Position numbers and translations under genes: made by a program. 64,000 bases of DNA from Prorocentrum cordatum. Taxonomy: Eukaryota; Sar; Dinophyceae; Prorocentrales; Prorocentraceae. The stretch's first letter is position 1; each line of letters begins with the position of its first letter. Below, in pieces: positions 7,531 through 54,287 of this stretch. A model generated the notes under the pieces. That model worked only from the letters and a program-made list of their open reading frames with translations, was not told the origin of the DNA and did no database searches. The stretch covers positions 32,501-96,500 of the forward strand of contig CAUYUJ010000843.1 of assembly GCA_963575745.1 (NCBI GenBank), read 5' to 3'.

Positions 7531-7655
7531 AGGAGGAGGAGGAGAAGGAGGACGAGGAGGAGGAGGAGGAGGAAGAGGAAGAGAAAGGGGGAGGAGGAGG
7601 AGGAGGAGGAGGAGGAGGAGGGGGAGGATGAGGATGAGGAGGAGGAAGAGGAAGA
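7525..7655. repeat. Interrupted (AGG)n microsatellite at LINE C 3' side
   Basis: Purine tract of AGG with GAA and GAT interruptions. In LINE C sense it is (TCC)n just beyond a (GCAATC)3 tail at 7655-7675. Confidence 0.9.
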
Positions 7656-7716
7656 GATTGCGATTGCGATTGCGCTGAATGCGGTGACCAAGAGCAAGCC
7701 TGGGCGCATGGGGAAA

Positions 7717-8619
7717 TCACCCTCTCACGGGGAAGCTCATACCTGACTTCGGAGGGAGCCCACGGGACAAACGGGAGAGAGCCTCCCGCCCTTTCGCGGT
7801 GGGGGCTCCACACTGGGCAGATAACTTTCGCGTTTGATCAACTCCAAACGCGCCATCCACAAGGCAGTACAGCACACCCTGACAAGTGGCGAGGGTGCGG
7901 GAGGCATGGACAGACTCAAAGAGGGGATGGTCGGAGGGAGGGCGCCGCGCCTGGATGTCCGCCACCTCCATGGGGGGCGCCTCCGCACGGCGGTCCTGCT
8001 CACCCTGAGGAGCCCACTCCCCCGCGACCTGCCCAAACCCGGACAATGGGATGCAGGTACGACGCCAAAACTGCGACAGGGCTCCTCTGCGGGAGAAGGA
8101 GCGGCAACATCTCGCACATTTGAACAACGCGCGCCGAAGAGAGGTACCATGGCCAGCAGCGATCAACCTCAACCGCCGCGCCCCCAGACTAGTGATACCA
8201 GCACGCTTCCGAGCAGCCGCGAGGCCAACGCGACTGCAAGCGCAACGCTCACGCTCACATGTCAAGAAAACTTCGCGCTGGATCGCCACTAGACGGCGCA
8301 GGATCTTTCCCTGCAGCTCATCAGCAGCTCGGACAGAGGCGACCTCTTCTGGTTCTAACTTGCCTCTCAGGGCGCCTTCGTTGGCACAAACGTCAGAAGC
8401 GCTATTCAAAAGCAACTCGACACGGGAGATCTGCATGTCCTCAATGTGTGCCTGGGTCGGGTGGGATTTAGTCCAGCGGAGATCAACCTCGCCCGAACGC
8501 GCCCCAAGACGTTCCCAAATCCGTCCCCAGAGATCAAGCATACAACTCTTACTCCTCTCCACATGTTCTGGAGACTTCCGGAAACTCCGAACAACAGGGA
8601 GGTAGTCAGAAAACACCAT
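7717..8619 (-). CDS. LINE C RNase H second half and C-terminal tail
   Basis: A 300-residue frame. It starts VFSDYLPVV, matching the third conserved Asp segment of RNase H, followed by WTKSHPT and NSASDVCANEGAL, which sit where the last acidic residue is expected. A later KCARCCRSFSRRG segment is a possible metal knuckle. RNase H would remove the RNA strand after first-strand synthesis. The first half of the domain is in the preceding frame (8630-9169), a few bases upstream. Confidence 0.65.
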   Translation of the reverse strand: MVFSDYLPVVRSFRKSPEHVERSKSCMLDLWGRIWERLGARSGEVDLRWTKSHPTQAHIEDMQISRVELLLNSASDVCANEGALRGKLEPEEVASVRAADELQGKILRRLVAIQREVFLTCERERCACSRVGLAAARKRAGITSLGARRLRLIAAGHGTSLRRALFKCARCCRSFSRRGALSQFWRRTCIPLSGFGQVAGEWAPQGEQDRRAEAPPMEVADIQARRPPSDHPLFESVHASRTLATCQGVLYCLVDGAFGVDQTRKLSAQCGAPTAKGREALSRLSRGLPPKSGMSFPVRG

Positions 8620-8629
8620 AATACTCCCT

Positions 8630-9169
8630 TCAGAAAATCGTCAGCAAGGCGAACAACGCATAGAGCTCTGACCGAGGAGAGCTCTGACAAGTAGTAGGCA
8701 AAGTCCCAAAGACTCCACCCGCAATATCCGATTCATTAGGATGTAGCATAACGGCGCTCCACCCACACCTCCTTAGCCTCCAGCCCTTAGTTTCGGAGCC
8801 CCCCGATCCATCGATCCCCCGCACCCCACCAACCACAGGGCGGGCACCTTGGAGAGACCCAAAGGCCCACTGAGCAGTTTGGGGCATCGGAAGACCTTTC
8901 ACAACCTGATCGAGCGACATCAGACCGCGGCACCAGAGGGAAGGGAGGGAGGTACTTTCCACGATAGCAATCGGGGACAAGCTATCTGTGGCCGAGACAT
9001 CAGGATTATCCAGCTCACAGTTCGCCGCGCACTGCCAGCTCACGCCCGCACCTGGGACACAAAGGGCTAGCTGCGTAGCCAGCCTCGAACAGACGGGATT
9101 CGGTCCAATATCCCCCCACCAGGGCGTTCCGCAAGATGGCCTGGGATTCGCAATCCAGGCTCCGACCAA
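8630..9169 (-). CDS. LINE C RNase H first half
   Basis: A 179-residue frame whose later half carries RNase H signatures: GIDGSGGSE with the first Asp, GWSAVM as the following strand, and SELYALFALL with the helix Glu. The N-terminal part overlaps another frame (9015-9383) that carries the Cys knuckle, so residues before about 60 are probably out of phase. The frame stops just before the third Asp segment, which resumes at 8619. Confidence 0.65.
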   Translation of the reverse strand: MVGAWIANPRPSCGTPWWGDIGPNPVCSRLATQLALCVPGAGVSWQCAANCELDNPDVSATDSLSPIAIVESTSLPSLWCRGLMSLDQVVKGLPMPQTAQWAFGSLQGARPVVGGVRGIDGSGGSETKGWRLRRCGWSAVMLHPNESDIAGGVFGTLPTTCQSSPRSELYALFALLTIF

Positions 9170-9383
9170 ACTGTTTCAACATGGCCCGAGGGACGGAAAA
9201 GTCAACACTCTTGAACTCCCGCTCCCAAATAGTGCTCCGCAGCTTTACCCCAAACCACATCAGCACAGGCAGCTTGGAGAGCCCACCACAGGTGGAACCG
9301 AAAGGAGGGAGTCTCAACGTAGAGGGACGCACCGTACTCATCATGCCATTCACAAGGAGAGGTGGGGGCCCACTCAAGGTCAA
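9015..9383 (-). CDS. LINE C post-RT segment with Cys knuckle
   Basis: A 122-residue frame ending in SPLCPRCGRELAV, a CxxC zinc knuckle of the kind found between RT and RNase H in several LINE clades. Upstream it has a well-formed helical segment (MLKQFGRSLDCESQAILRN). It bridges the RT frame (9202-10239) and the RNase H frame (8630-9169), which implies frame changes on both sides. Confidence 0.6.
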   Translation of the reverse strand: MTLSGPPPLLVNGMMSTVRPSTLRLPPFGSTCGGLSKLPVLMWFGVKLRSTIWEREFKSVDFSVPRAMLKQFGRSLDCESQAILRNALVGGYWTESRLFEAGYAASPLCPRCGRELAVRGEL

Positions 9384-10239
9384 AAAGGGCGGCGACGGTG
9401 GCCATCATGGGTCCTTTGACCCGCCCCCAACGACAATTCGCAGGGATGGTCAAAAACAAGTCCACCGCCGCCACCCAAACCCTCTGGACCCGCATTCGAT
9501 CCTTAGGTGGCAAGTCACACCACAGGTCTGCAAAGCTCAGCAGGTGCTCGCGCCTTAGTCGAAAGATGGGGTCCTCCGCGCTGCTACAAACCAACGCCGA
9601 GACCGTGGTGGAACAAGACCCAGGGGTCCACCAACCAGAACACTGGGCCGCCTGGCCCCTCACAGTCTGCAACTGGTGAGGGGACATCCCAACCAGTTGA
9701 TGGCCCCAGGTCCCAGCCGCCAAAACACTAGGTTGGCACAGCTTGGAGGCCCTCTGATAGATGCGGGAAAGGAAGGACACCTTACCAGCACGACGCCGCG
9801 CTTCAAGCCTCCGCCGCTTCACTGCAGGAACCCTCCGCCGTCTTCCAGCCGTGGTACATGACCCCAAATCCCTCGTTTCAGCACGATACCGAATTGGAAG
9901 TCCCAAGGCCTGAAGACTATCTGCAAGGCGAGCGCCAACTGCCGGGGAAGAGCAGACGAGGGCGCTCTTGCTACTGAGCGCCGGGCCCAGCTTGTCGACT
10001 TCTTGCGCGAACAGCGTCGCAGCAGGCAAGACGTGGGCAAGGAGCTCCTGCTCCGTACCCGCCATATTCTGGGCGACGTCATCAACATAGGCCCGTGACA
10101 CCACTCGAGACACCTCACCATTCACCTGATAATGGGCGGCCTCCAGGGCCTCGTAAACGTAGATTTTGACCCACGGCATGCTCTGGGAACATCCAGGTAA
10201 AAACACTTCCCCCCCGCAGACACCATGCGGGAGACGCAA
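9202..10239 (-). CDS. LINE C reverse transcriptase, second half (YVDD)
   Basis: A 345-residue frame with motif B-like PGCSQSMPW at 15-23 and motif C YVDD at 51-54, then the connection and thumb region. The first half of the RT is in 10122-10874, in another phase, with an overlap of about 118 bases. Catalysis needs both parts, so this copy is broken here. Confidence 0.75.
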   Translation of the reverse strand: MRLPHGVCGGEVFLPGCSQSMPWVKIYVYEALEAAHYQVNGEVSRVVSRAYVDDVAQNMAGTEQELLAHVLPAATLFAQEVDKLGPALSSKSALVCSSPAVGARLADSLQALGLPIRYRAETRDLGSCTTAGRRRRVPAVKRRRLEARRRAGKVSFLSRIYQRASKLCQPSVLAAGTWGHQLVGMSPHQLQTVRGQAAQCSGWWTPGSCSTTVSALVCSSAEDPIFRLRREHLLSFADLWCDLPPKDRMRVQRVWVAAVDLFLTIPANCRWGRVKGPMMATVAALFDLEWAPTSPCEWHDEYGASLYVETPSFRFHLWWALQAACADVVWGKAAEHYLGAGVQEC

Positions 10240-10874
10240 CCTTCAACTTCCAACATACGGGGGGCCGTATGGATGAGCATCCCAAGATACAATAAATGGG
10301 GTGGGTACCCCATGCGCAGGGCCAATCGGATGAGCAGACGAGGGCTCACCGCATCAAAAAACTTCGCAAGATCCCAATGGGTCGCAGGCGAGATAACCCC
10401 TTCATGTCTGGCACACTCGCGGTACAACTCCCGAACAAGCGCCGCTCGAAGAGCCGACGATCCTTTGACCGCCGTGTCCCAGAACGCCGCGTGGTCGGCA
10501 GTCCACGACTCGATATCCCTCCCCCGAATTTGGGCGTAGAGACCGCACAGGGTGGGACACTTACAGACGGGGCGCTCATCAACCTGAGACTTCGGCAACG
10601 ACGCAATCAGGCCAAGCAAGATTTGAGCTGGCCACGCCATACTCCTCTCGCACAGGGAGTAAAGAGAGGCCTGCGCGCGAAGGGCCTCGGCAGGGAGCTC
10701 TGCCACCGCCGGAGGCCCCCACTCATCAACTCCGACAGCAGTTGTCGCCGAGAAAAAATTGCATGCTTGAATGCATGGGGCGGCGATGGGGGGAAGGCCT
10801 TCAACACGCTCGATCGCCACAGCACGGAGGTCAGACATGGCATCACCCAGCCTCAAAATTTCCTCCGCCGACAC
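10122..10874 (-). CDS. LINE C reverse transcriptase, first half
   Basis: A 250-residue frame covering RT fingers and first palm motif. TAVGVDEW at 45-52 is the G-x-D-x-W segment of the fingers. HWDLAKFFDAV at 166-176 is motif A with both Asp residues. The frame drifts after about residue 225, where 9202-10239 takes over. Confidence 0.75.
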   Translation of the reverse strand: MSAEEILRLGDAMSDLRAVAIERVEGLPPIAAPCIQACNFFSATTAVGVDEWGPPAVAELPAEALRAQASLYSLCERSMAWPAQILLGLIASLPKSQVDERPVCKCPTLCGLYAQIRGRDIESWTADHAAFWDTAVKGSSALRAALVRELYRECARHEGVISPATHWDLAKFFDAVSPRLLIRLALRMGYPPHLLYLGMLIHTAPRMLEVEGCVSRMVSAGGKCFYLDVPRACRGSKSTFTRPWRPPIIR

Positions 10875-11328
10875 AGACCAAAATCCCCCCCCACAAACGG
10901 GCCCTGTACTCCATCATTTCTGCAGGTAACTGTTTGACACCGTCAGGGGGGGTAAAATATTCAACCACGCTCCGATTGCCCCGCTTCAACCAGGAGTGCA
11001 CCCCCTTAGCACCATGTGGGATGGAGCGCAGCAGCCAGGCCTTGAGGCCTTTCGAAGACTCCGCCTTAGCTGCCGTCCAAGCTCGCTTCAAAACCTCGGA
11101 TGTGAGATCAACGAGGCGACCCACCATATCAAGATCCCCCAGCGCAGAAACGGTGACCTGATCGGTCCACCAGGGAGCAGGCTGAGCTGGCGGCAGCACC
11201 TCGGAACACTCCCCGACACGGCTGATCATGTCCATGATCAGCCCGAAAATGCGGCTCTCGGTGGATCGCCGTCGCAACGACGCGCGAAGCTCAAATAACT
11301 CGGCAGAGAACCGAGACCAGAACGCCAA
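10843..11328 (-). CDS. LINE C linker between endonuclease and RT
   Basis: A 161-residue frame, mostly helical and basic, with AHSWLK-like GVHSWLKRGNR near 110-120. It overlaps the EEP frame by 38 bases and the RT frame by 32, each in another phase. No separate enzymatic motif; it occupies the usual EEP-RT linker position. Confidence 0.5.
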   Translation of the reverse strand: MAFWSRFSAELFELRASLRRRSTESRIFGLIMDMISRVGECSEVLPPAQPAPWWTDQVTVSALGDLDMVGRLVDLTSEVLKRAWTAAKAESSKGLKAWLLRSIPHGAKGVHSWLKRGNRSVVEYFTPPDGVKQLPAEMMEYRARLWGGILVCVGGGNFEAG

Positions 11329-12337
11329 AGTCGGACAGCGAAAAGATGTGCCAATGCCACCTTTTATGCGTGATCGTAGATGTAACCAGTTTCAATGCAT
11401 CCCCTCCCCCCATGTACGCATGCTCCTCCTCCTCACCGATAGCGGCACAGGCACGCGAAAGAAACAATCGCTCGGTAGCACGCGACCAGAGGGAATACTG
11501 CACAGAAACCTGATCATCCAGGTGCTCGACTGCATGCGGGATGAGATGGGCCAGCTGCACAGGGCACATACACAGCGGCACGCGATCTGAGCAAATCTCT
11601 TGATGAAGATGACGCCGCCGCGGTAAGTCAGGCCCGCGGCAACCTGGAATAACGCGAGGGCGAACTCGCCGACAGAGACGCTGAACCAACACTCGGTGGG
11701 CCAACTGGATACGAAGTGCACGATGTGTTTTGAACGGGGACGGTTCGAAAACTCCAACCTGGTCGAACGGGGCCAAATCCTCCGAGACCAGCGCATAATC
11801 GATCATCGTCCCCGATCCTTGCGAACACGTGAAATCGACGCCCATCGGGGCCAGCACCCGAGCATGAACAGACTGCGGATATCCCGAGAGCCACAGACTT
11901 TCAACTTCAATAGTGAAGTCCCCAACCAACATCCAGGGAATCCCGAGAGCACGGACGAACTCGGCGACACCCCGCATTTTGGACAGGTTCTCCCCCGCGA
12001 CACCCAGGCACGAGACAAAGTAGCACACTCCGACCGCGATAGTCGCTCTCTGGGTCTTGAGCTCGAGAAACATCCAACCTGGGCCCGACCCAATGTCGGA
12101 AATCACACCTGCATGGGCAAGAAAACGCTTAAAATACAAGCTCCTGCTGACGACCATCCCGACCCCGCCGTGAGTCCCCCCTCCCTTAGTAGGCACGCCT
12201 GCCTGAAGGTGGGGCCTCCAGCCCACGGCTGCGATCTCCCGCTTCGCGGCAGGCAAAGCAAGCTGCTGTATTCTGTGCTCGCAAAAAAAGGAAGCCATCC
12301 ACCTCTGGACAAATGGCAGACGCAAAATCCTCTGCAA
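11291..12337 (-). CDS. LINE C endonuclease (EEP) domain
   Basis: A 348-residue frame. VGDFTIE at 138-144 sits at the GDFN position (Asn replaced by Thr), TMIDYALVS at 177-185 is the I-D-Y strand, and KTHRAL at 203-208 keeps the terminal His of the SDH motif. The tail (YSLWSRATERLF) is helical linker. It would nick the target site. N-terminal catalytic residues lie upstream of this frame. Confidence 0.7.
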   Translation of the reverse strand: MQRILRLPFVQRWMASFFCEHRIQQLALPAAKREIAAVGWRPHLQAGVPTKGGGTHGGVGMVVSRSLYFKRFLAHAGVISDIGSGPGWMFLELKTQRATIAVGVCYFVSCLGVAGENLSKMRGVAEFVRALGIPWMLVGDFTIEVESLWLSGYPQSVHARVLAPMGVDFTCSQGSGTMIDYALVSEDLAPFDQVGVFEPSPFKTHRALRIQLAHRVLVQRLCRRVRPRVIPGCRGPDLPRRRHLHQEICSDRVPLCMCPVQLAHLIPHAVEHLDDQVSVQYSLWSRATERLFLSRACAAIGEEEEHAYMGGGDALKLVTSTITHKRWHWHIFSLSDFGVLVSVLCRVI

Positions 12338-12493
12338 CCTTAGACCAGCTCGTGATGTTACAAAACGCCAAATTCAGGCGACCGCCTGCTGCGAGCGAAA
12401 ACTTGGATCGGGGCGGACGGGACCGGGAAGGAAAACCATCGCTAAAGAGACGCCGCCCCTTCCACTGGCATTGCGACGGCCTGCTTGAGCAGC

Positions 12494-13729
12494 TCAGTGA
12501 ACTGGCTCTGGAAATGCCCCTTTCGTGGTCCGCAGGCGCTTGGCGGTGCGGGCTCGAACCCGATCACGGATGAGGTTCTCCATGCGCTCCTGCTCCTCAG
12601 GGGTGAGCACCTGATCCTGGCCACGCTTGCGCAGCCCGCGCAATTCTTCATCGCCAGCTCCGACAGCATCTCCAAAGCCAACGTCGCTGCCAGCATCACT
12701 AGCAGCATCATCCTCAGCACGTTGAATGGTGGCCCGCATGGCCACGAACGCTTCCCAGAGGCCCTTTGGCAACCGCTGCTGGTTGGCCCACTCGTTCTGC
12801 TCGGCTGCCGACATCTGCGAGAAGTCTGGAAGATCCACCTGCATGGGCTCCTGCACTGGTGCATCCACGCCTTCTTCGCCGTCAGCAGGCACATCAGCAG
12901 GAGCTGGGCCGCCATCGCCAGCACCTCCAGCAGCCACGCCGCCACGCGCCGCGCCGCCGCGCGCCGCGCCGCGCCAGGGCGCGCCCGCCCGCGGCGCAGC
13001 AGGGGCCCCAGCGGGGGGCGCAGCCCGCTGGGCCTGGCGCGCCGCCTCAGCGCGCGCCTCAGCAGCCTTCGCCACCTTCCAAGCCTCGGGGTCGAAGGCC
13101 TGGAGCTCGGCGTCGGCATCACGACGGGCCTTCTCAGCAGCTCCATGCTCCTCCTCCGCAGCGTGCAGGGCGTTCGTCGCCTCGTCAAGTTGCCCCCGTA
13201 CCCGCTGAGCCTTGTTTCTCTTCTGCTCCACTTCCTGGCACGCAAGCCGAACCTGCCGAGCAGCGTCCTCGACCACACGGGCCAAGCGGGTCCACTCGGT
13301 GTTCGCCGCGGTGTCGAGCTGGGCAGGTGCGAGGACAGCCGCTGGAGGCGCAGGCTCCTCCGCCAAGTCGCCCAGGTACTCGCGGAGACCAGGCCGCGCC
13401 GCCAAGAGAGTGGCGGCAGCGGCGCGCAGCTGCGCTTCAGGCTGCCCAGCACCAGCAGCACCTGCAGGGGCACCTTCATGGTCTCCCCCTTCCACGGACT
13501 TTGGACTCGAGGTAAGAGCCACCACACTTGGAGCAAACCTCATGACCGCGGCTTGCCCACTCCCAGTGACTGCAGGAAACACACATGTTGTATCTCCGCT
13601 GGCGCAGGCGGCGCCGCGGAACACGTTTGTCGTCCCGTGAACCTTCAGGCTGAAACACCCAGTTCCCTGCCTTGCCACGGTAGCTGCCAGCCCGCAAACC
13701 AGCACCACCGCGACGCCATGGGGGCTCAT
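12494..13729 (-). CDS. LINE C ORF1 coiled-coil part
   Basis: A 411-residue frame. From about residue 85 it is Ala/Glu/Arg-rich with long heptad-like helices (RLARVVEDAARQVRLAC, QLDEATNALHAAEEEHG). The middle is Ala/Gly/Arg-rich, and the C terminus is acidic then basic. This resembles the nucleic-acid-binding ORF1 proteins of LINEs. The first about 75 residues are probably out of phase: the true N terminus is the zinc-ribbon frame at 13476-13742, joined by an indel near 13500. Confidence 0.6.
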   Translation of the reverse strand: MSPHGVAVVLVCGLAATVARQGTGCFSLKVHGTTNVFRGAACASGDTTCVFPAVTGSGQAAVMRFAPSVVALTSSPKSVEGGDHEGAPAGAAGAGQPEAQLRAAAATLLAARPGLREYLGDLAEEPAPPAAVLAPAQLDTAANTEWTRLARVVEDAARQVRLACQEVEQKRNKAQRVRGQLDEATNALHAAEEEHGAAEKARRDADAELQAFDPEAWKVAKAAEARAEAARQAQRAAPPAGAPAAPRAGAPWRGAARGGAARGGVAAGGAGDGGPAPADVPADGEEGVDAPVQEPMQVDLPDFSQMSAAEQNEWANQQRLPKGLWEAFVAMRATIQRAEDDAASDAGSDVGFGDAVGAGDEELRGLRKRGQDQVLTPEEQERMENLIRDRVRARTAKRLRTTKGAFPEPVH

Positions 13730-13742
13730 GCGCCATGGCCAC
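13476..13742 (-). CDS. LINE C ORF1 N-terminal zinc ribbon
   Basis: An 88-residue frame starting about 126 bases after the spliced leader, the expected place for the first ATG of a trans-spliced mRNA. MCVSCSHWEW and VCSKCGGSY give two CxxC pairs about 15 residues apart, a zinc-ribbon pattern. It precedes the coiled-coil part of ORF1 but in a different phase. Confidence 0.6.
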   Translation of the reverse strand: MAMAHEPPWRRGGAGLRAGSYRGKAGNWVFQPEGSRDDKRVPRRRLRQRRYNMCVSCSHWEWASRGHEVCSKCGGSYLESKVRGRGRP

Positions 13743-13867
13743 GAGAGACTCCGAGATGTAGGAATGATGCCAAAAGGGAGCCTTCGCTCCGCTGGGAAAG
13801 CAGGCTACGGAAGCCCCAACGCTAATCGCTGGTTCTCAGGTGTCCATAGCCCTTCACAACGTTTAGC

Positions 13868-13889
13868 CTTGAGCCAAAATTGCTACGGG
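13868..13889 (-). other. DinoSL spliced-leader relict at LINE C 5' end
   Basis: Reading the minus strand gives the dinoflagellate spliced leader with one internal mismatch (CAATTTTGG in place of CCATTTTGG) and C as first base. It is followed directly by the LINE C 5' leader and preceded by (TCC)n. Trans-splicing adds this leader to mRNA, so its presence in DNA indicates retroposition of a processed transcript. Confidence 0.88.
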
Positions 13890-19194: not shown

Positions 19195-19216
19195 CTTGAG
19201 CCAAAATGGTTACGGT
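19195..19216 (-). other. DinoSL spliced-leader relict
   Basis: The minus strand reads the spliced leader with one mismatch (GTAACC in place of GTAGCC). Unlike the other three relicts it is not next to (TCC)n. It sits directly upstream of a short leader and the 76-residue ORF. Confidence 0.85.
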
Positions 19217-32700: not shown

Positions 32701-32796
32701 CAACGCAACAAGAAAAACACGCCGTGATGTTGCTCATGACTCGAGGGGGTCTGGGAGTGCAGCAACAGCGCGCGCGCGCCGCCGCAGATGATGAGC

Positions 32797-33004
32797 CTGG
32801 TTTCCACCTCCACCACCACCACAAGTTGGAGGGGGGAAGGAGGAGGAGGGCGAGGAGGAGGAGGAGGACAAGGAGGACAAGGAGGACAAAGAGGACGACG
32901 AGGACAAAGAGGAGGAGGAGGAGGAGGACGCGGAGGAGGAGGCGGAGGAGGAGGCGGAGGAGGACCCCCCCCCCTCCAACTTGTGGTGCTGGCAATGGAA
33001 AGCA
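32797..33004. mobile_element. 208-bp inverted-repeat element with (AGG)n core
   Basis: The left arm (TTTCCACCTCCACCACCACC then ACAAGTTGGAGGGGGG) pairs with the right arm (CCCCCCTCCAACTTGTGGTG then GGCAATGGAAAGCAG). The core is (AGG)n with AGGACA units. The same arm type bounds 52487-52971, so this is a family of at least two. Confidence 0.75.
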
Positions 33005-33240
33005 GGCCCGCCCGCAGAGCTCAGCCCGCCGCGGCCACGCGCGGGGGCGGCGCAAAGCCCGCGGCTGGCGCGCCGCCCGCCGCCGCGGCGCCGCCCGCCG
33101 CCGCCGGCGCGGTGTGGCCGGCCGCGGCCGAGAGCGCGGCAGCCCTCCCGCGCAGCGGCGGCTGCCGCGGCGGCGCGGCGGCTGCCGCGCCGGCGGCGGC
33201 TGGAGGCGGCCGCCGGCAGCGGCTTCTTTGGTGGGCAGAG
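33005..33240. other. GC-rich spacer, no gene recognised
   Basis: CGCCGCCGCGGCGCC-type sequence. Frames on both strands are Ala/Arg/Pro-rich and look compositional. Confidence 0.5.
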
Positions 33241-41985: not shown

Positions 41986-42190
41986 GGCCCGCACTCGGGA
42001 GCGGCCAAGAGGGGGGCGTCCAAGAGGGGGGGGCGCAAATCATGACCGGCGGCACGTGCGCGGCCCAGCGGGGGGGCCAGGGACGCAATGAAATAAGAAG
42101 AAGCTCCATGAAATCTGGGGAAATATCATGGCCCCCGCCATGATATCCACCCCCCCTAGTCATCACCCCCCTCTTTTCCGCCCCCGACGC
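41986..42190 (+). repeat. Dispersed repeat U, copy 2
   Basis: Same order as 7165-7380: GGGAGCGGCCAAGAGGGGG, CAAATCATGACCGGCGG, GGCACGTGCGCGGCCCAGCG, ATCATGGCCCCCGC, CTAGTCATCACC. Here it lies on the 3' side of LINE D. Confidence 0.8.
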
Positions 42191-43317
42191 ACCCCAGCCG
42201 AGCTCCCGAGGGCCGCGGGGGGCCGGGGCGCACGCGGCGAGGGAGGGCGCCCCCTGCGCGCCTTCTGCGCGCCCCGAGCACGACCGAGGCTGCCCCCAGC
42301 GGCGTCCCTGCAGACCTCCGGGATTTGGGCGAGGGCCCTTGCTAGGAGGGCACCAACTATACACCAACACCGATCCTGGCCAGGATCACCCTGGGCCCAG
42401 GATCGGTGTATACGCACTCCTACCTGGGGCAGGAAGGCATACACACCGATCCTGGGCGCAGGATTGGCGTGGCCAAGATCGGTGTAGGTGTATAGTTGGT
42501 GCCCTCCGACTTGCAGTGGGCTCGACAAGTCTTCCGAAATAGTGTCCAACATGCGAGTCGCCCCTGCGGCAGAACGTGCAGACCGTATAATATCATCAGC
42601 ATACCGGATGATGCTAATCAACCTGACGTCTCCAACGTCGAAGCCGCACTGCTGAGCTCGGATTTTGAGCCTTCTGATTGCGTGCTCCAGTCCAGCGTTG
42701 AAAAGCAGCGATAGCGAAACATCGCCTTGTTTGACTCCGCGCGTTATGTCAAACGCTGCGCTGCCAGTAACGCTTGCACTGTAAATGTCTGACAAGAGAC
42801 GCACGTATTCTACATCAACTCCCTGTTCCGCCAACGCTTGGAAAAAAAGCACGTGATGATCCAGCCTGTCGAAAACTTTCGTGAGTTCAATGCTGGCTAT
42901 CCACAGTGGGAGCTGCCACTCCCAGGCCTTCGTGCAAAAATCCTCCAAAACGACAAATGGGTCGTCCACAGAGCGACCCGGTCGAAATCCTATTGTCTCA
43001 TGCGTCTGCTCCCTCTCTAAAACGGGTTGCAAACGCGAGAAAACTAGGCGAGCGAACGTCTTATATGTTATGCACAAAATCGCAATGGGACGCGCATAAT
43101 TTACATCACGTATGTTGCCCGTCTTCGGCAACATGGTAAGACGCGTATCCTGCCACGTGGGATCGACGCATCCTGTGCTGAACAGAGCGTTCAAACACGA
43201 CATAAGATGCCTGTGCAGAGCATCGCCACCAAACGCAAACATTTCAAGGGTGATGCCGCATTTGTCTTCGCACCTTCCGCGCTTCATGCGCTTAAGAGCT
43301 TGTCGCAACTCTTCCAT
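42163..43317 (-). CDS. LINE D reverse transcriptase
   Basis: 384 residues open; residues 1-270 are RT. The GFRPGRSVDD segment lies at 110-119; motif A ASIELTKVFDRLDH at 141-154; motif B RGVKQGDVSLSLLFNAGLE at 193-211; motif C YADD at 239-242. The first motif A Asp is replaced by Glu (IEL for the usual VDL), which should impair catalysis. After residue 270 the frame runs through the inverted-repeat element and unrelated GC-rich DNA. It is the best-preserved classical RT in the window. Confidence 0.85.
   Translation of the reverse strand: MEELRQALKRMKRGRCEDKCGITLEMFAFGGDALHRHLMSCLNALFSTGCVDPTWQDTRLTMLPKTGNIRDVNYARPIAILCITYKTFARLVFSRLQPVLEREQTHETIGFRPGRSVDDPFVVLEDFCTKAWEWQLPLWIASIELTKVFDRLDHHVLFFQALAEQGVDVEYVRLLSDIYSASVTGSAAFDITRGVKQGDVSLSLLFNAGLEHAIRRLKIRAQQCGFDVGDVRLISIIRYADDIIRSARSAAGATRMLDTISEDLSSPLQVGGHQLYTYTDLGHANPAPRIGVYAFLPQVGVRIHRSWAQGDPGQDRCWCIVGALLARALAQIPEVCRDAAGGSLGRARGAQKARRGRPPSPRAPRPPAALGSSAGVRRGRKRGG
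42345..42507. mobile_element. 163-bp inverted-repeat element at the LINE D break
   Basis: Terminal arms are exact over 21 bases: GGAGGGCACCAACTATACAC + C at the left and its complement at 42487-42507. Further paired ACACCGATCCTGG-type segments lie inside. The LINE D RT frame ends exactly at 42508. A relative with the same internal order (ACCGATYCTGG, CCCAGGATCGG, GGCCAGGAAGGC) lies at 55032-55179. There is no coding capacity of its own. Confidence 0.85.
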
Positions 43318-45178: not shown

Positions 45179-45590
45179 GAGGAGTATTTTTTTTCATCGC
45201 TGGACGCTCGCCAATAATCCTTATCCATAGCCCGTGAACTGCGAGGGCCACGCCGCGGCAGGCTAGGCCTGCCAAAGTCGAGGGCCGCGCAGGAGGGGGG
45301 AGCAGCAGCAGCAGAGGAGCAGCGAAAGAGGAGAGGGAGGACAGGGTACGTGAGGCCAGCGCACTGCGAGATGCCGCTCTTCGGCGACTCGCGGGAGGTA
45401 CCGCGGCACCTCGCGCGCGGGGAGGGGCGGGGCAGCCCCGCCCGCTACCGATCCTCCCGCGCGAGAGTCCTCGGCAGCGGGGGGGCGCACTCGGCGACGG
45501 GGGAGGACAGAGTCCATGCCCCACAAGCCACGGGCGCTTGCGACCCAGGCCACCGTCACCTCGACCCACAACCCAGGCCCGAACCCACGC

Positions 45591-46190
45591 CTAGACAAAA
45601 TTGAGAGGCGAGCACCCTTCCCCCCAGAGAGGCGCAACGGGCGCAGTTGAACAGGTCGTCGACGGGGCGGGCGGCGGGGGCGGCAGGGAGCGGCGGGGCG
45701 GGCGCGCGCACGCCCCCGCGCGCGCTCCCCCAGCCAGGCGAGGACCCAACCCCAGCAGCAGCAGCACACGCACAGCGGAGCAGCAGCAGCAAAGAGGACC
45801 GAGGGGGCGGGCAGGAAGAAAGGCAGGGATAAGAGGGGAAGGCAGGGGCGGGAGAAAACCGAGGACCCAACAAAGCCCACCCCGCAGGGGAGAAGCAGCG
45901 GCAGCGGCAGGGAAGAGAAGGAAGACAGCAAGCGACAGGAAAGGCAGAGGGAACACAAAGAGAAGCACCATAACTAACGCGCGAGAGATGGAAGGGAGCG
46001 GCCACGCCCAGATCTTCGCATCCGCGTTCGAGAGGGAGAGCGGGCGGGTGGAGGCAGGTGCACGTGAGACAAAGTCACTGCGATCACGTGGGTCGCTGCC
46101 CTTCGGGAGGAAGACCACACGACGAACTCGACACTCAGGGGGGAGAGCATCACCTGCACTGTTGAAAACCTCCTCGTAAACCTCGAACAA
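45591..46190 (-). CDS. LINE B reverse transcriptase N-terminal fragment
   Basis: Frame with VVFLPKGSDPRD and RPLSLSNADAKIWA, RT motifs 1 and 2. APGPDGIPYGCW reads just upstream in the same phase (about 46230), so the real domain begins there. After about residue 65 it becomes hydrophobic then Ala/Arg-rich and no palm motifs follow. The RT is truncated near 45990. Confidence 0.6.
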   Translation of the reverse strand: MFEVYEEVFNSAGDALPPECRVRRVVFLPKGSDPRDRSDFVSRAPASTRPLSLSNADAKIWAWPLPSISRALVMVLLFVFPLPFLSLAVFLLFPAAAAASPLRGGLCWVLGFLPPLPSPLIPAFLPARPLGPLCCCCSAVRVLLLLGLGPRLAGGARAGACARPPRRSLPPPPPAPSTTCSTAPVAPLWGEGCSPLNFV

Positions 46191-46346
46191 AGCAGCGGTC
46201 GCCTCAGGGACCTTCCAGCATCCATACGGGATCCCATCAGGACCAGGAGCAGAAGGAAACTCATGGCCGACACGGTCCCGAAATTCGCCAACTTCAAGTT
46301 TCCATCGAGGGGCAGGAGTAATGTCGTCAATAGTCTGAACGTGGGC

Positions 46347-47024
46347 CTAAATTTCTTGCCAATGAGTCGGATCGTGATCAGCCTGTGCAAAGACCTTACT
46401 CCAATGGGCCACCAGAGCCGCAGTTGCCGCTTCTGGGGAGGCACACGGGGCCCCGTCCTCGTCCAAGACGCCTAGCAGCCCAGTCCTCCTCCTCATGGGG
46501 TCCCACCCACGCCGAAGAGCCGCCGGCCTTCGCCTCTTCTTGGTCCTTACCTCATCCACCTGGTTACTATGATCCACCTCCTCCAGCTCCGCATCAAACC
46601 AACGCCCCTTCAAGGCCAGTACCAAACTGTGGAGGCCATCAGGATCAATGCACACACCGCTGTCGACGTCGAAGAAAGGCAGGAGAGAGGCGCAGCAACG
46701 AATGGCACGAAGACAGAGATACCACTGCCGACCCCGCCACCCACGGCATGCCACGAAAGCAAAGTGGAGCCGCTCCGCATCGTCGGCCGCTGGGCGACAG
46801 CAGCCGCACCGAAAACTTCTTTCGCCCGTTCGAGTTTCTGGGCAGGGCCCGACGGGGGCGTCAGCCCCCGCAGCTGTTCGGAAACCATCACGTGCTAGTC
46901 GGCATGCTGGCTGATCCATTTCGGAACCGAGAACCGACCCCTCGGGGTCGGGAAACCGCGGCAGCAACGGGAATGCGATCGGAGGAGGCCCCTGGATGCA
47001 GGAGGGCGCCGACAGCGTTGACAA
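46347..47024 (-). CDS. LINE B linker before RT
   Basis: A 225-residue frame with Cys-rich RCGCCRPAADDAERLHFAF near 70, a helical segment, RTKKRRRPAALRRGW and WSKVFAQADHDPTHWQEI at the end. The position and the closing segment match the linker just before RT motif 0. Confidence 0.5.
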   Translation of the reverse strand: MSTLSAPSCIQGPPPIAFPLLPRFPDPEGSVLGSEMDQPACRLARDGFRTAAGADAPVGPCPETRTGERSFRCGCCRPAADDAERLHFAFVACRGWRGRQWYLCLRAIRCCASLLPFFDVDSGVCIDPDGLHSLVLALKGRWFDAELEEVDHSNQVDEVRTKKRRRPAALRRGWDPMRRRTGLLGVLDEDGAPCASPEAATAALVAHWSKVFAQADHDPTHWQEI

Positions 47025-47601
47025 CGACGGTCATCTCATTGAGAATACCTGCAGGAAGGGTCGTGTAAATCCGATCTAATCTGGCCAACCCCCTCAGCTC
47101 CCGATTCACAATATCCCTACGGGTCGGGTCGGGCTGGTATAATTCACACCAGTGGCTACAATGTTCCAGAAAGGCATCGCATTGCACACGGTCCCCAGGC
47201 CCAATCTCCCCCGATACAAGCGACCTACCATCCTCCATCGTACAGAAATTCCAGTCGCCCAGAATGACAACCATAGTATGGGCTGCCGCGGGAAGGGCGG
47301 CATTGATGAGGCGTAAGTACTGATGATACATATGGACATCATCGCACGTGTTAGGCACATGAACATTGACCACGACCAAGTCGCCTCGAGGTCCCCGACC
47401 ATGGACGAGTAAAATCCGCCCAGGAACGACCGGAATCGGAGCGACCGAGTCGAAACAGTCACATAGATCTGAAGACAAGAACGCCACCACCCCACCAGCG
47501 TTCCGATCATCCAGATAGCTCCCAAAAAAATGCCCGGTCCGCATTTCGTCCCGAAGGATAACCAAGTCCGCTTCAGAGCCGTGCGTCTCCTGTAAACACA
47601 T
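46888..47601 (-). CDS. LINE B endonuclease (EEP) domain
   Basis: A 237-residue frame. CLQETHG at 2-8 holds the catalytic Glu; VVVNVHVPN at 77-84 is a core strand; ILGDWNF at 113-119 is GDxN; ARLDRIYT at 173-180; SDRIPV at 207-212 has Arg where SDH has His. In the same phase, upstream codons read SWNARALFASLSSRASR, the expected first strand, so the domain starts near 47700. It would nick the target for priming. Frame changes separate it from ORF1 and from the linker. Confidence 0.78.
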   Translation of the reverse strand: MCLQETHGSEADLVILRDEMRTGHFFGSYLDDRNAGGVVAFLSSDLCDCFDSVAPIPVVPGRILLVHGRGPRGDLVVVNVHVPNTCDDVHMYHQYLRLINAALPAAAHTMVVILGDWNFCTMEDGRSLVSGEIGPGDRVQCDAFLEHCSHWCELYQPDPTRRDIVNRELRGLARLDRIYTTLPAGILNEMTVVVNAVGALLHPGASSDRIPVAAAVSRPRGVGSRFRNGSASMPTST

Positions 47602-47890
47602 GACCTGATACTGGAAGAGCAGCTGCTTAGCCCGAAGGAAGCGTAAACGTGACCGAGATGCGCGAGACGAAAGAGAGGCAAAGAGCGCGCGCGCGTTCCA
47701 ACTGCAGAGAGAGAGAGGACGGGCAGGACGGTAGACTCCACCAGCTTCCCCAGCAGGCGGCGAGAAGGATCAATCACTGTCACTTGCATGGTGTGCACCA
47801 AAATTGGCAGGGAGGGCGGACGAGCACTCAGTAGCCAAACCCGCTGGACTTCTCCCCGCCGCCCACTCACCTGTCGAGCCGTTCCGATAC

Positions 47891-49036
47891 TCACCGAAAA
47901 GGGCGAATCTCTGCAAACATGGCGCGCAGACACTGTGCGCGTTGCTGCCCACCCACTTCCGTCAACCCATCGATTTCGACGCCACACTGGACGGTGCCCG
48001 CAGTGGGGCCATCATCGACAATAGAAATCTTTACAACCTGCACGGTGACTCCGTTGTCCTTCATCACATAAATCGCACCTCCTAGCCCCGTCGACCCGAC
48101 CTTGTCCGCCCCAAAGATTCTGGAGACATGCTGGCGCATATTCCCAAGATAATAGAACAGCTTCCTGGACGAGGGGGGGAGATCACGTCGAACCCGTAGC
48201 TGCAAGTCAGGACCGCCCTCGGGGTTCGGGAAGGGGAACGCGCCCACGGACGAGGCCATCCCGTGGAAAGTGGAGGCCTCTAGGTTGGAATCAAAGTCCA
48301 CGAACACCTTCTTACTGCAATCGTAAGCCTTGACCTGAATCGAACCCTGAGTCGAAGACGGAGCACAGCGGGCGAGGATGCTCTGGACTGCCTCGCGGAG
48401 CGTTTTCTCCATCAACGGCCGAGGGAACCCAAGTGCCACAAGAGGCGAGGGGTTGCCCACGAGACCAGAGTCGATCTTCCGACGAACCTGCCTTTCATCA
48501 TCCCCACGAGGCGTCGGGGTCCCCTGGTCGGCATTCCGAAGGTCCTGGATCTCATCGCGCATCGTCTGGATCATTCCCTCGAGCTCTTCACGAATGGCGG
48601 ATTCTGCGGTCTCTCGGTCCTGAATGCACTGAAGAAGAGCCTGTTCATGGATCGCTCGCATCTGCTCGAAGTTTGCAGCCGTCTGCTTGGCCAATTCAGT
48701 GCGTGCCTGTTGTAATGTCTGGAAATTCTTCTCAGCTGCGATCATCTGACCCTGGATTCCCGAAATCTGCTGGTTGATCTCCTGAACGCCGAGATTCAAC
48801 TGACTGGACAGGCTTGCGACTGACGACGACAGAGGAACAATCATATCACGCATGGCGGCAAGGATCTGCTCGGTGTCCCGCTTGCCCTCCAGGCAGGTAC
48901 CTCCAGGCACCGGCGGGGGCGTACTCATCCCTCCAGGGGAGGCAGGAGGAGTGGACGAGAGGGACACAGGCCACGAGTCGCCGCCCTCGGACGGCATCGC
49001 GGGAGGAGAGCCGCAAGCACGAGGGAGCGCGGCCAC
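47891..49036 (-). CDS. LINE B ORF1 protein (coiled coil)
   Basis: An intact 381-residue ORF; its ATG is 87 bases after an exact spliced leader, which supports this start. Residues 1-50 are Pro/Ser-rich. About 55-170 is a long heptad-like coiled coil (SSVASLSSQL, ELEGMIQTMRDEIQDLRN). 190-380 is a globular domain with LVGNPSPLVALGFPRPL and KVFVDFDS, compatible with an RNA-binding ORF1 fold. ORF1 proteins coat element RNA. The first 76 codons are duplicated at 52531-52757. This is the least damaged coding sequence in the window. Confidence 0.75.
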   Translation of the reverse strand: MAALPRACGSPPAMPSEGGDSWPVSLSSTPPASPGGMSTPPPVPGGTCLEGKRDTEQILAAMRDMIVPLSSSVASLSSQLNLGVQEINQQISGIQGQMIAAEKNFQTLQQARTELAKQTAANFEQMRAIHEQALLQCIQDRETAESAIREELEGMIQTMRDEIQDLRNADQGTPTPRGDDERQVRRKIDSGLVGNPSPLVALGFPRPLMEKTLREAVQSILARCAPSSTQGSIQVKAYDCSKKVFVDFDSNLEASTFHGMASSVGAFPFPNPEGGPDLQLRVRRDLPPSSRKLFYYLGNMRQHVSRIFGADKVGSTGLGGAIYVMKDNGVTVQVVKISIVDDGPTAGTVQCGVEIDGLTEVGGQQRAQCLRAMFAEIRPFR

Positions 49037-49123
49037 GGCGGGCCAGGGGAGCGCGTCCGCTCCCGGCCTTGGTGCCTGGCCACCAGGCGCCTCGAGAGAG
49101 GTTGGAAGTTAAGGAGCAGGCCC

Positions 49124-49145
49124 CTTGAGCCAAAATGGCTACGGA
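49124..49145 (-). other. DinoSL spliced leader, exact 22-nt copy
   Basis: All 22 bases match the dinoflagellate spliced leader with T at position 1. The preceding bases (element sense) are (TCC)n, so TCC of the tract runs into TCCG of the leader. Downstream is the LINE B leader and ORF1. Confidence 0.95.
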
Positions 49146-52451: not shown

Positions 52452-52757
52452 TTACATTATAGCCGACATCTGCCTGTCGCTCGCCCTGCATGATGAGCAT
52501 GTTTTCCACCACCGCCACCATAAGTTGGAGAGGCTTGCGACTGACGACGACAGAGGAGCAATCATATCACGCATGGCGGCAAGGATCTGCTCGGTGTCCC
52601 GCTTACCCTCCAGGCAGGTACCTCCAGGCACCGGCGGGGGCGCACTCATCCCTCCAGGGGAGGCAGGAGGAGTGGACGAGAGGGACACAGGCCACGAGTC
52701 GCCGCCCTCGGACGGCATCGCGGGAGGAGAGCCGCAAGCACGAGGGAGCGCGGCCAC
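52452..52757 (-). CDS. LINE B ORF1 N-terminal duplicate fragment
   Basis: Residues 1-76 match LINE B ORF1 with two substitutions (T39A and V67A), ending SSVASLS. The frame then reads into the inverted-repeat arm (NLWWRWWKT) and stops. It is a non-functional fragment; its near identity to 48816-49036 points to a recent origin. Confidence 0.8.
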   Translation of the reverse strand: MAALPRACGSPPAMPSEGGDSWPVSLSSTPPASPGGMSAPPPVPGGTCLEGKRDTEQILAAMRDMIAPLSSSVASLSNLWWRWWKTCSSCRASDRQMSAIM

Positions 52758-52971
52758 GGCGGGCCAGGGGAGCGCGTCCGCTCCCGGCCTTGGTGCCTGG
52801 CCACCAGGCGCCTCGAGAGAGGTTGGAAGTTAAGGAGCAGGCCCCTTGAGCCAAAATGGCTACGGAGGAGGAGGAGGGCGAGGACGAAGAGGAGGAGGAA
52901 GAGGAGGAGGAGGAGGACCCCCCCTCCAACTTACGCGGTGGTGGTGGTGGAAAACACGCCCATCACTGCAT
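52487..52971. mobile_element. 485-bp inverted-repeat element enclosing a DinoSL-tagged LINE fragment
   Basis: The left arm (GATGAGCATGTTTTCCACC, then ATAAGTTGGAG ending 52530) pairs with the right arm (CTCCAACTTACG from 52924, then GTGGAAAACACGCCCATCAC). Inside, on the minus strand: (TCC)n, exact DinoSL, LINE B leader and codons 1-76 of ORF1. The LINE sequence starts on the base after the left arm. The insert is nearly identical to 48816-49145. Confidence 0.8.
52845..52866 (-). other. DinoSL spliced leader, second exact copy
   Basis: Matches all 22 bases. Again (TCC)n lies directly upstream in the minus sense, with interruptions different from the LINE B copy. Confidence 0.95.
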
Positions 52972-53729
52972 GCGGGGTGCGCTCCACATATCGCCCGAGC
53001 GCGGCGCAATTTCTGCTGCCGCCGCCAGCGATGCATTCGGAGGGGGGGGGGGGCATTGCCCGCCGCTGAAGCGAACAGGCGGCCACCCCGAGGGTAGCCC
53101 GCGGCCTCTCGACGACATGGCGCTACTCGTGGCGCGGGTGGGCAAACCGCCAACACCGCCACGCCCCACGCCCCCTCAGCACCACCTTTGTCGGCGACGG
53201 CAAATCCACTCCTTGATCTGCGGAAGACGTTCGACGGTCCCTCGAAACCACCACCATGTTCGACCGTCTCTCTCGGGTCAGGAGATCCAGCGAGGTAAGG
53301 TTACGGGCTGGGCACTGGGTCAAAACCTTCGTGACCAGGTCCCCCAACTCACCCTCGACCAGAAACCCCTCAAATTCCAAGACCACATCAAACTGGCCAG
53401 AAGCTGCATCAACGCGGGAGCAGAGCCGCCCGCAGGCGCTCTGAATCTCACCCACACGGCCAACGCCCGTGCGAGGCGCTCGCGCCAGCGCCTCACTCGC
53501 TTGGAAGCTAAATCCCATCAGGCTCGGCCCCTCGCCGCCAGTGTCGGCGCCACGGGCGCGGGCATTCAAACTCCGAGCACCAAGACCGAAGGGGCCCGCG
53601 ACAAAGGACTCCTGGCTGCTGTCCTCCCCGAGGGCAACCAATCGGTCAACTTCTGGTCCCCCCCTGGACGTCCGCATCCCTGGCCATGCCGTCGAGCTCG
53701 ACGCCACCGCCCAGTAGGAAACCACCCCG
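52972..53729. other. GC-rich; possible decayed 5' part of LINE E
   Basis: Several frames are open on both strands, but none shows RT motifs that I can place. It precedes the recognisable LINE E 3' region. Confidence 0.35.
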
Positions 53730-54287
53730 GTGGTCCGACGCCAGGTCCAGCGATGCCCCGACCCTACACGCCTGGCGCCCGAGCTCAAGGACTACGTCCA
53801 GACCGCGCACGGCGGAGGGCCCACTGGGCGCCAAGTTCAGGTCCTACGCCAGATCTTCTGGACCTGGCCCGAATTCGGCACCTTCTGCCGTGGCTGGGGC
53901 AACCGCATCAGCTGGATCCACGTGCCCCAATGGGGCCCTGTTTCACAACGCGCCGCCTTCCTGCGAAAAATAAAACCTTCGCGCCGCGACCTCAGGCGCC
54001 CCCCGCGCGTCGAGCAGGGCGTTGACGCGCTCGCCGCCACGCGGCTCGCCCACGCAAAGGTGGCCCTCAAAACCCACGCCGGGCAACTCGGTCTCATCCA
54101 CAACTACCTCTCGGACGGAGACCGCCCCCGGCAACGCTGCGCGCGGGCCAGCATTTCCGCGGGCCCCAGCCCCACGCGCAGATACTACGACACTGACGAG
54201 GAAGCCCGAGAGCACGCCATCTGGAAATGCCCCTGCCGGGAAAACAATCGCCGCCCCCTGGCCACGATGATCTCGGACGAGCAATAG
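53730..54287 (+). CDS. LINE E post-RT segment with Cys knuckle
   Basis: A 185-residue frame rich in Arg/Pro. Its last 35 residues (DTDEEAREHAIWKCPCRENN) fit the His/Cys knuckle that precedes RNase H in such elements. No palm motifs are present. Confidence 0.45.
   Translation: MVRRQVQRCPDPTRLAPELKDYVQTAHGGGPTGRQVQVLRQIFWTWPEFGTFCRGWGNRISWIHVPQWGPVSQRAAFLRKIKPSRRDLRRPPRVEQGVDALAATRLAHAKVALKTHAGQLGLIHNYLSDGDRPRQRCARASISAGPSPTRRYYDTDEEAREHAIWKCPCRENNRRPLATMISDEQ

Follow-up and report, generated by a model that had tools for sequence, protein, structure and literature searches.

Microsatellites have been named as targets of non-LTR retrotransposons that carry a restriction-like endonuclease, in the available portion of one account (PMC4640811). 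In dinoflagellates, retroposition is possibly mediated by retrotransposons, according to the accessible text of PMC12014239, and introners with inverted-repeat arms (TIRs) and short duplications occur, as indicated by the available sections of three reports (PMC9860276, PMC7789003, PMC10666404). The locus described here lies in a 64,000-nucleotide stretch of the Prorocentrum cordatum genome (contig CAUYUJ010000843.1), hereafter the window, whose G+C content is 60%. It is a composite in which a TIR element encloses the 5' fragment of a LINE headed by the spliced leader, DinoSL. The original prediction saw in it an inverted-repeat element that had captured the LINE fragment, perhaps an undescribed type of mobile unit that moves spliced-leader sequence. 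We argue below that the composite is the outcome of two ordinary processes.

The composite and its inverted-repeat family

The composite is a TIR element at 52491-52965 of the window, with a 5-bp target duplication, CTGCA, outside both arms (exact copies at 52486-52490 on the left and 52966-52970 on the right). The left arm (52491-52530, plus strand), which terminates in TTGGAG, is the inverted repeat of the right arm (52920-52965, minus strand); their 29-nt ungapped core is 90% complementary, and 38 of 43 aligned positions are identical. Between the arms lie a 335-nt 5' fragment of a LINE B-family retrotransposon (52531-52865, minus strand), with an exact DinoSL 21-mer at its 5' end (52845-52865, minus strand), and the TIR element's 52-nt (GGA)n core (52866-52917, plus strand), (TCC)n when read from the minus strand. 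The inverted arms, the (TCC)n, the exact spliced leader and the piece of LINE described in the original prediction are therefore all present at 52491-52965. The LINE part was also said to start on the base after one arm, and it does so: the arm ends ..TTGGAG and the next base opens the LINE sequence AGGC.., with no spacer. Equally correct was the near-match to LINE B, in which the counterpart of the fragment is 48810-49144: over 52534-52865 the two differ at 3 of 332 bases. The count of 76 ORF1 codons holds if the frame is taken from the GTG at 49036, and fails if it is taken from the ATG at 48997, which gives about 62. A search for target-site duplications had been suggested, and the CTGCA pair is its result; this duplication and a LINE-free copy of the element at 32789-33013 (copy 2) are additions to what had been noted earlier.

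The arm pattern has a mean of 0.00 chance matches over 100 shuffles. TIR pairs (at least 16 of 20 positions) accompanied by an exact 5-bp direct repeat occur in none of 40 local dinucleotide shuffles and nine times in the real window; six of the nine were set aside as belonging to a low-complexity stretch at 37.4-38.4 kb, and the composite is among the three that lie outside it. The ORF flanking the composite at 53123-53788 has no Pfam match at E 0.1. Both partners are repeats, which might suggest an assembly join of unrelated pieces, but the arms are paired in register, the 5-bp duplication is intact outside them and the core boundary of the family is preserved inside, and we regard such a join as scarcely conceivable.

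Copy 2 has paired arms, a GGA-type repeat alone between them, no LINE, and a 5-bp duplication, GCAGA, with which it spans 32784-33018 (plus strand). This arrangement of TIR, (GGA)n and TIR, over about 220 bp, is the usual anatomy of the family. With copy 2 as the query against the genome, the best-scoring 40 of 1390 candidates (copy 2 and 39 relatives) were taken as a sample, which is therefore non-random; all 39 relatives were retrieved and compared with an arm model built from the four arms of the window. Both arms are present in 35 of the 39, and one or both are missing in L097, L106, L107 and L108. Every one of the 35 paired-arm relatives has a GGA microsatellite core (115-434 nt, median 143), in a sample that is likely to overlook TIR copies whose foreign cargo is long, since nothing but their short arms would match the query. 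When these 35 relatives are considered together with the composite and copy 2, an exact 5-bp duplication in fixed register is found in 18 of 37, against a null mean of 0.48 and a maximum of 3 in 300 shuffles of pairs; the duplication matches at 4 or more of 5 bp in 27 of 37, and no exact duplication of 4 or 6 bp is seen in any of the 37. The consensus arm of the family is TGATGGGCCTGTTTTCCACCACCACCACCATAAGTTGGAGGGGG, and the arm pattern has no match in IMG/VR.

Anatomy and family together show that the TIR element is short, non-autonomous and MITE-like. The idea of a mobile inverted-repeat unit is upheld by the many paired-arm copies with 5-bp target duplications; since these exist, the absence of other paired-arm copies, which had been named as the point against the idea, does not apply. 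The TIR-(GGA)n family also provides one source of trinucleotide repeats in the genome. Two more MITE-like elements with other TIRs are found in the window, at 41995-42187 and 42343-42509, with exact 5-bp duplications CGCAC and CTTGC, respectively; the second is nearly wholly palindromic.

The TIRs and short duplications known from the dinoflagellate introners cited above, and the fact that the ends of the composite can be read as GT...AG on the minus strand, bring to mind an introner, a TIR element spliced out as an intron, with the LINE sequence taken up in that role. We consider this improbable. Common splice signals were not seen: the 5-bp duplications differ in sequence from one element to another, GTAAGT is present in one of the four window arms, and copy 2 ends without a GT donor on either strand (dinoflagellate donors may, it is true, be non-canonical).

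The DinoSL LINE family and its insertion sites

LINE B (45187-49144, minus strand) has a DinoSL 5' end, ORF1, an endonuclease domain (Pfam Exo_endo_phos, E 9.9e-7), the start of a reverse transcriptase and an A8 tail. It is flanked on both sides by (GGA)n arrays with common variants that are absent elsewhere in the window. A comparison with five copies of the family that lie in (TCA)n repeats shows that about 1.8 kb is missing from its reverse transcriptase region (near 46011), and the ends of this deletion share 2-3 nt of homology, TC(T) at both; internal deletions thus occur in the LINE B family. Splicing was rejected as the origin of the deletion, there being no GT...AG at its ends. A second DinoSL-bearing, LINE-like element, LINE A (7657-13888, minus strand), is distinct from LINE B. 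The 16-mer GGAGGAAGAGGAAGAG stands at both of its ends (7641 and 13889) inside GGA arrays, with a third occurrence at 7568 in the same array, and its terminus is a short GCAATC repeat. Its reverse transcriptase is indicated by a sub-threshold Pfam match (E 0.36) and a YVDD motif; a reverse transcriptase piece of LINE A has no similar proteins at E 0.01, and the three matches of a LINE A piece to solved structures (E 0.17-0.89) are none of them meaningful. The presumptive primer strand terminates in GAG at all three loci, LINE A, LINE B and the composite. The window contains four DinoSL sites, of which the one at 19195-19215 is a DinoSL relic with one mismatch and no microsatellite upstream.

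The family was followed across the genome with the composite as query, by taking the best-scoring 40 of 2437 candidates (the composite, LINE B and 38 further loci), again a non-random sample. DinoSL is present in 37 of the 38 retrieved loci. A period-3 repeat, called at an identity of at least 0.75 over the 36 nt upstream of the outermost leader, precedes 33 of these 37 copies, whereas random positions show one in 4.0% of cases within these loci and in 4.5% across the window; L041 and L042 have a common flank and possibly represent one event. The four copies below the cut-off (L015, L026, L033, L046) nevertheless have short TCC or TCA runs. Judged by eye, the upstream repeat is (TCA)n at L021, L027, L033, L045 and L048 and mainly (TCC)n at the other loci. 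The query included the 52-nt GGA array and could have biased the sample towards GGA-flanked copies, but the (TCA)n cases are not attributable to it.

Five (TCA)n copies were read over about 6.5 kb and each proved to be some 5.7-5.8 kb long. In these five, the part of the 38 retrieved loci for which 3' ends were examined, the 3' end always lies in a (TCA)n-type repeat, in four cases after a plain A5-A6 run (L117 being the loosest case). The same kind of microsatellite lies on either side of these five copies, and of the window's LINE A and LINE B as well. At least 7 of the 37 DinoSL-bearing copies (L016, L019, L022, L038, L039, L041, L042) carry two or three consecutive leaders, as would be expected if each cycle can add a new leader, and these may be read as the trace of successive rounds in which the RNA was trans-spliced and inserted again. 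The overall pattern is strong and points to a trans-spliced LINE family with a target preference for microsatellites.

DinoSL was also met with outside dinoflagellate contigs. A contig listed as viral and rich in A+T (L001, IMGVR_UViG_3300045993_001077) has two exact copies, at 2746-2766 and 2893-2913, one of which precedes a 254-aa ORF that differs in composition and may be a dinoflagellate gene retrocopied into a virus. A contig from a Dehalococcoidia MAG (L002, positions 1-52) begins with (TCA)n followed by an exact DinoSL and then by bacterial-looking ORFs, through contamination or as a chimera.

How the LINE fragment and the element came together

In all probability, a MITE-like TIR element received in its GGA core an insertion from a LINE of the microsatellite-preferring DinoSL family. 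The first step, which anatomy and family demonstrate, was the insertion of the TIR element with its (GGA)n core, creating the 5-bp duplication. In the second, suggested by the strong pattern of LINE insertion sites, the DinoSL-LINE machinery would have taken as its target the core's first GGAG, where the array meets the left arm. The pairing of a LINE fragment with a TIR element is explicable in this way, with no need to invoke a novel type of mobile unit.

The position of the LINE within the element can be judged from an 18-mer, AGGAGGAGGAGGGCGAGG, that occurs twice in the window: at 32838, where it forms the arm-proximal start of the copy 2 core, and at 52866, where it forms the first 18 nt of the composite's core, beside the leader. 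A looser version of the motif falls in the first 75 nt of the core in 13 of the 35 relatives; in 9 it is placed at some other point of the core, and at none of the 37 LINE loci does it come within 24 nt of the leader. The LINE is therefore most likely located between the left arm and the beginning of the array that belongs to the element. At this arm/array boundary the composite lacks about 6 nt, which read GGGGGA in copy 2.

The same array bears on the possibility that DNA repair did the copying, a break in the GGA core being mended from the array and 5' end of a LINE (LINE B, for example, 3.7 kb off), with a return to the arm through microhomology. This would account both for the GGA homology at one junction and for the microhomology at the opposite one, and fragment and LINE B are 99% identical. 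However, the array on the leader side fits the core start of copy 2, with its GCG triplet, and not LINE B, which has GGG. Since arrays change fast, this difference does not settle the matter; we hold this course of events to be unlikely.

If insertion of the LINE is accepted, its missing 3' part would find an explanation in a third step. The first strand would have been primed by the 3' end of the arm, TTGGAG, on an inner position of the LINE RNA through TGGA pairing, and not on the A tail; alternatively, priming would have taken place on the end of a tailless RNA. Synthesis would then have reached the spliced leader, so that the 5' 335 nt alone were copied and about 6 nt of target were lost. 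A first strand begun inside the LINE RNA would, in a single step, leave just this 5' portion without a tail, and the GGA array beside the leader. Internal priming or tailless insertion is less certain than the two preceding steps, and we put its chances about level with those of all the alternatives together. Only a short pairing, TGGA, is available at the junction before a mismatched base, and 61 of 3948 LINE B positions (1.5%) do equally well. The LINE copy in the composite lacks an A tail, a clear duplication and the LINE 3' end, so that target-primed insertion is unproved for this copy.

The main rival for the loss of the 3' end is a later deletion: a longer LINE would have inserted in the GGA core, and its 3' part would subsequently have been removed by a microhomology deletion reaching up to the arm. 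LINE B itself, with its 1.8-kb internal deletion and TC(T) at both ends, provides a precedent, and TGGA is common to both sides of the arm/LINE junction. Against this, beside the leader the array of the element seems to be whole, its arm-proximal start included; the LINE must therefore have been lying directly against the arm, with the deletion stopping exactly at that point. This variant of nested insertion is possible, and a good deal less probable than the insertion itself.

It had been argued that a 5'-only LINE fragment needs a mechanism such as gene capture. This argument is not compelling, as internal priming, tailless insertion or later deletion suffices. Moreover, one retrieved locus (L044) is a 5'-only fragment of the LINE B family, ending at LINE position 306, and is armless, so that such fragments arise without the TIR element. 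In the form in which a TIR DNA transposon acquired a piece of LINE and travels with it, gene capture can appeal to the exact 5-bp duplication around the whole composite, which is compatible with movement after the acquisition. The arm/LINE junction, however, is found exactly once in the 4.13-Gb assembly, in the composite itself; with up to 3 mismatches allowed there are four matches, and the other three, each with 3 mismatches, have neither arms nor LINE B. No locus besides the composite spans arm and LINE together among the best-scoring 40 of 2437 candidates. Since the junction occurs once, there is no sign that the composite moves, and the suggestion of a mobile unit carrying spliced-leader sequence finds no support. 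Nor does capture of the LINE fragment by the element, given the junction's single occurrence, the GGA-only cores of all 35 paired-arm relatives (in a sample liable to miss long cargo) and the microsatellite sites of the LINE family itself; we consider it very improbable.

Nested insertion of the kind we prefer is infrequent, because not one of the 37 further LINE loci with DinoSL shows a TIR-family arm beside its 5' end. At L032 an intact TIR element lies about 440 nt upstream of the leader, as a neighbour only.

Significance and comparison with known systems

The target preference of the LINE, combined with trans-splicing, outweighs the composite itself in importance. With a DinoSL LINE family that resides at (TCC)n and (TCA)n repeats, it becomes directly testable which machinery produces the spliced-leader retrocopies of dinoflagellate genomes. 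It is also tempting, though speculative and rather doubtful, to imagine a two-element system in which (GGA)n TIR elements spread fresh microsatellites and the trans-spliced LINE lands there, gaining a new leader per cycle. Should that machinery insert host mRNAs as well, DinoSL retrogenes would owe their origin to it, and their ends would be expected at trinucleotide repeats.

No description of this LINE family or of the TIR family was found in the literature on dinoflagellate LINEs, leaders and microsatellites, introners, target-specific LINEs and endonuclease-independent insertion (including PMC6050394), as far as the partial coverage of these sources extends. The TIR family resembles MITEs in its TIRs, its target duplication of constant length, its many copies and its size of about 220 bp without coding capacity; it differs from them in its GGA microsatellite core, and its TIR TGATGGGCCTGTTTTCCACC and 5-bp duplication could be matched to no superfamily. 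The composite shares short homology at the 3' junction with the tailless, endonuclease-independent L1 insertions described in the available text of PMC2912911, but here the site is of the type usual for the LINE family, and the organism and the LINE are others.

Like the microsatellite-targeting non-LTR retrotransposons of PMC4640811, as presented in its accessible portion, the LINE family has copies with the same type of simple repeat on both sides. Those elements carry a restriction-like endonuclease, whereas the LINE described here has an Exo_endo_phos domain, bears DinoSL and occurs at (TCC)n as well as (TCA)n. Finally, the relic retrogenes with DinoSL, going by the available parts of PMC7245778 and PMC12014239, resemble the present case in that genomic DinoSL arises through reverse transcription of trans-spliced RNA, and in that leaders are repeated, as they are in the multi-leader LINE copies mentioned above. 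The difference is that the RNA here is the LINE's own and that a microsatellite lies at the insertion site.
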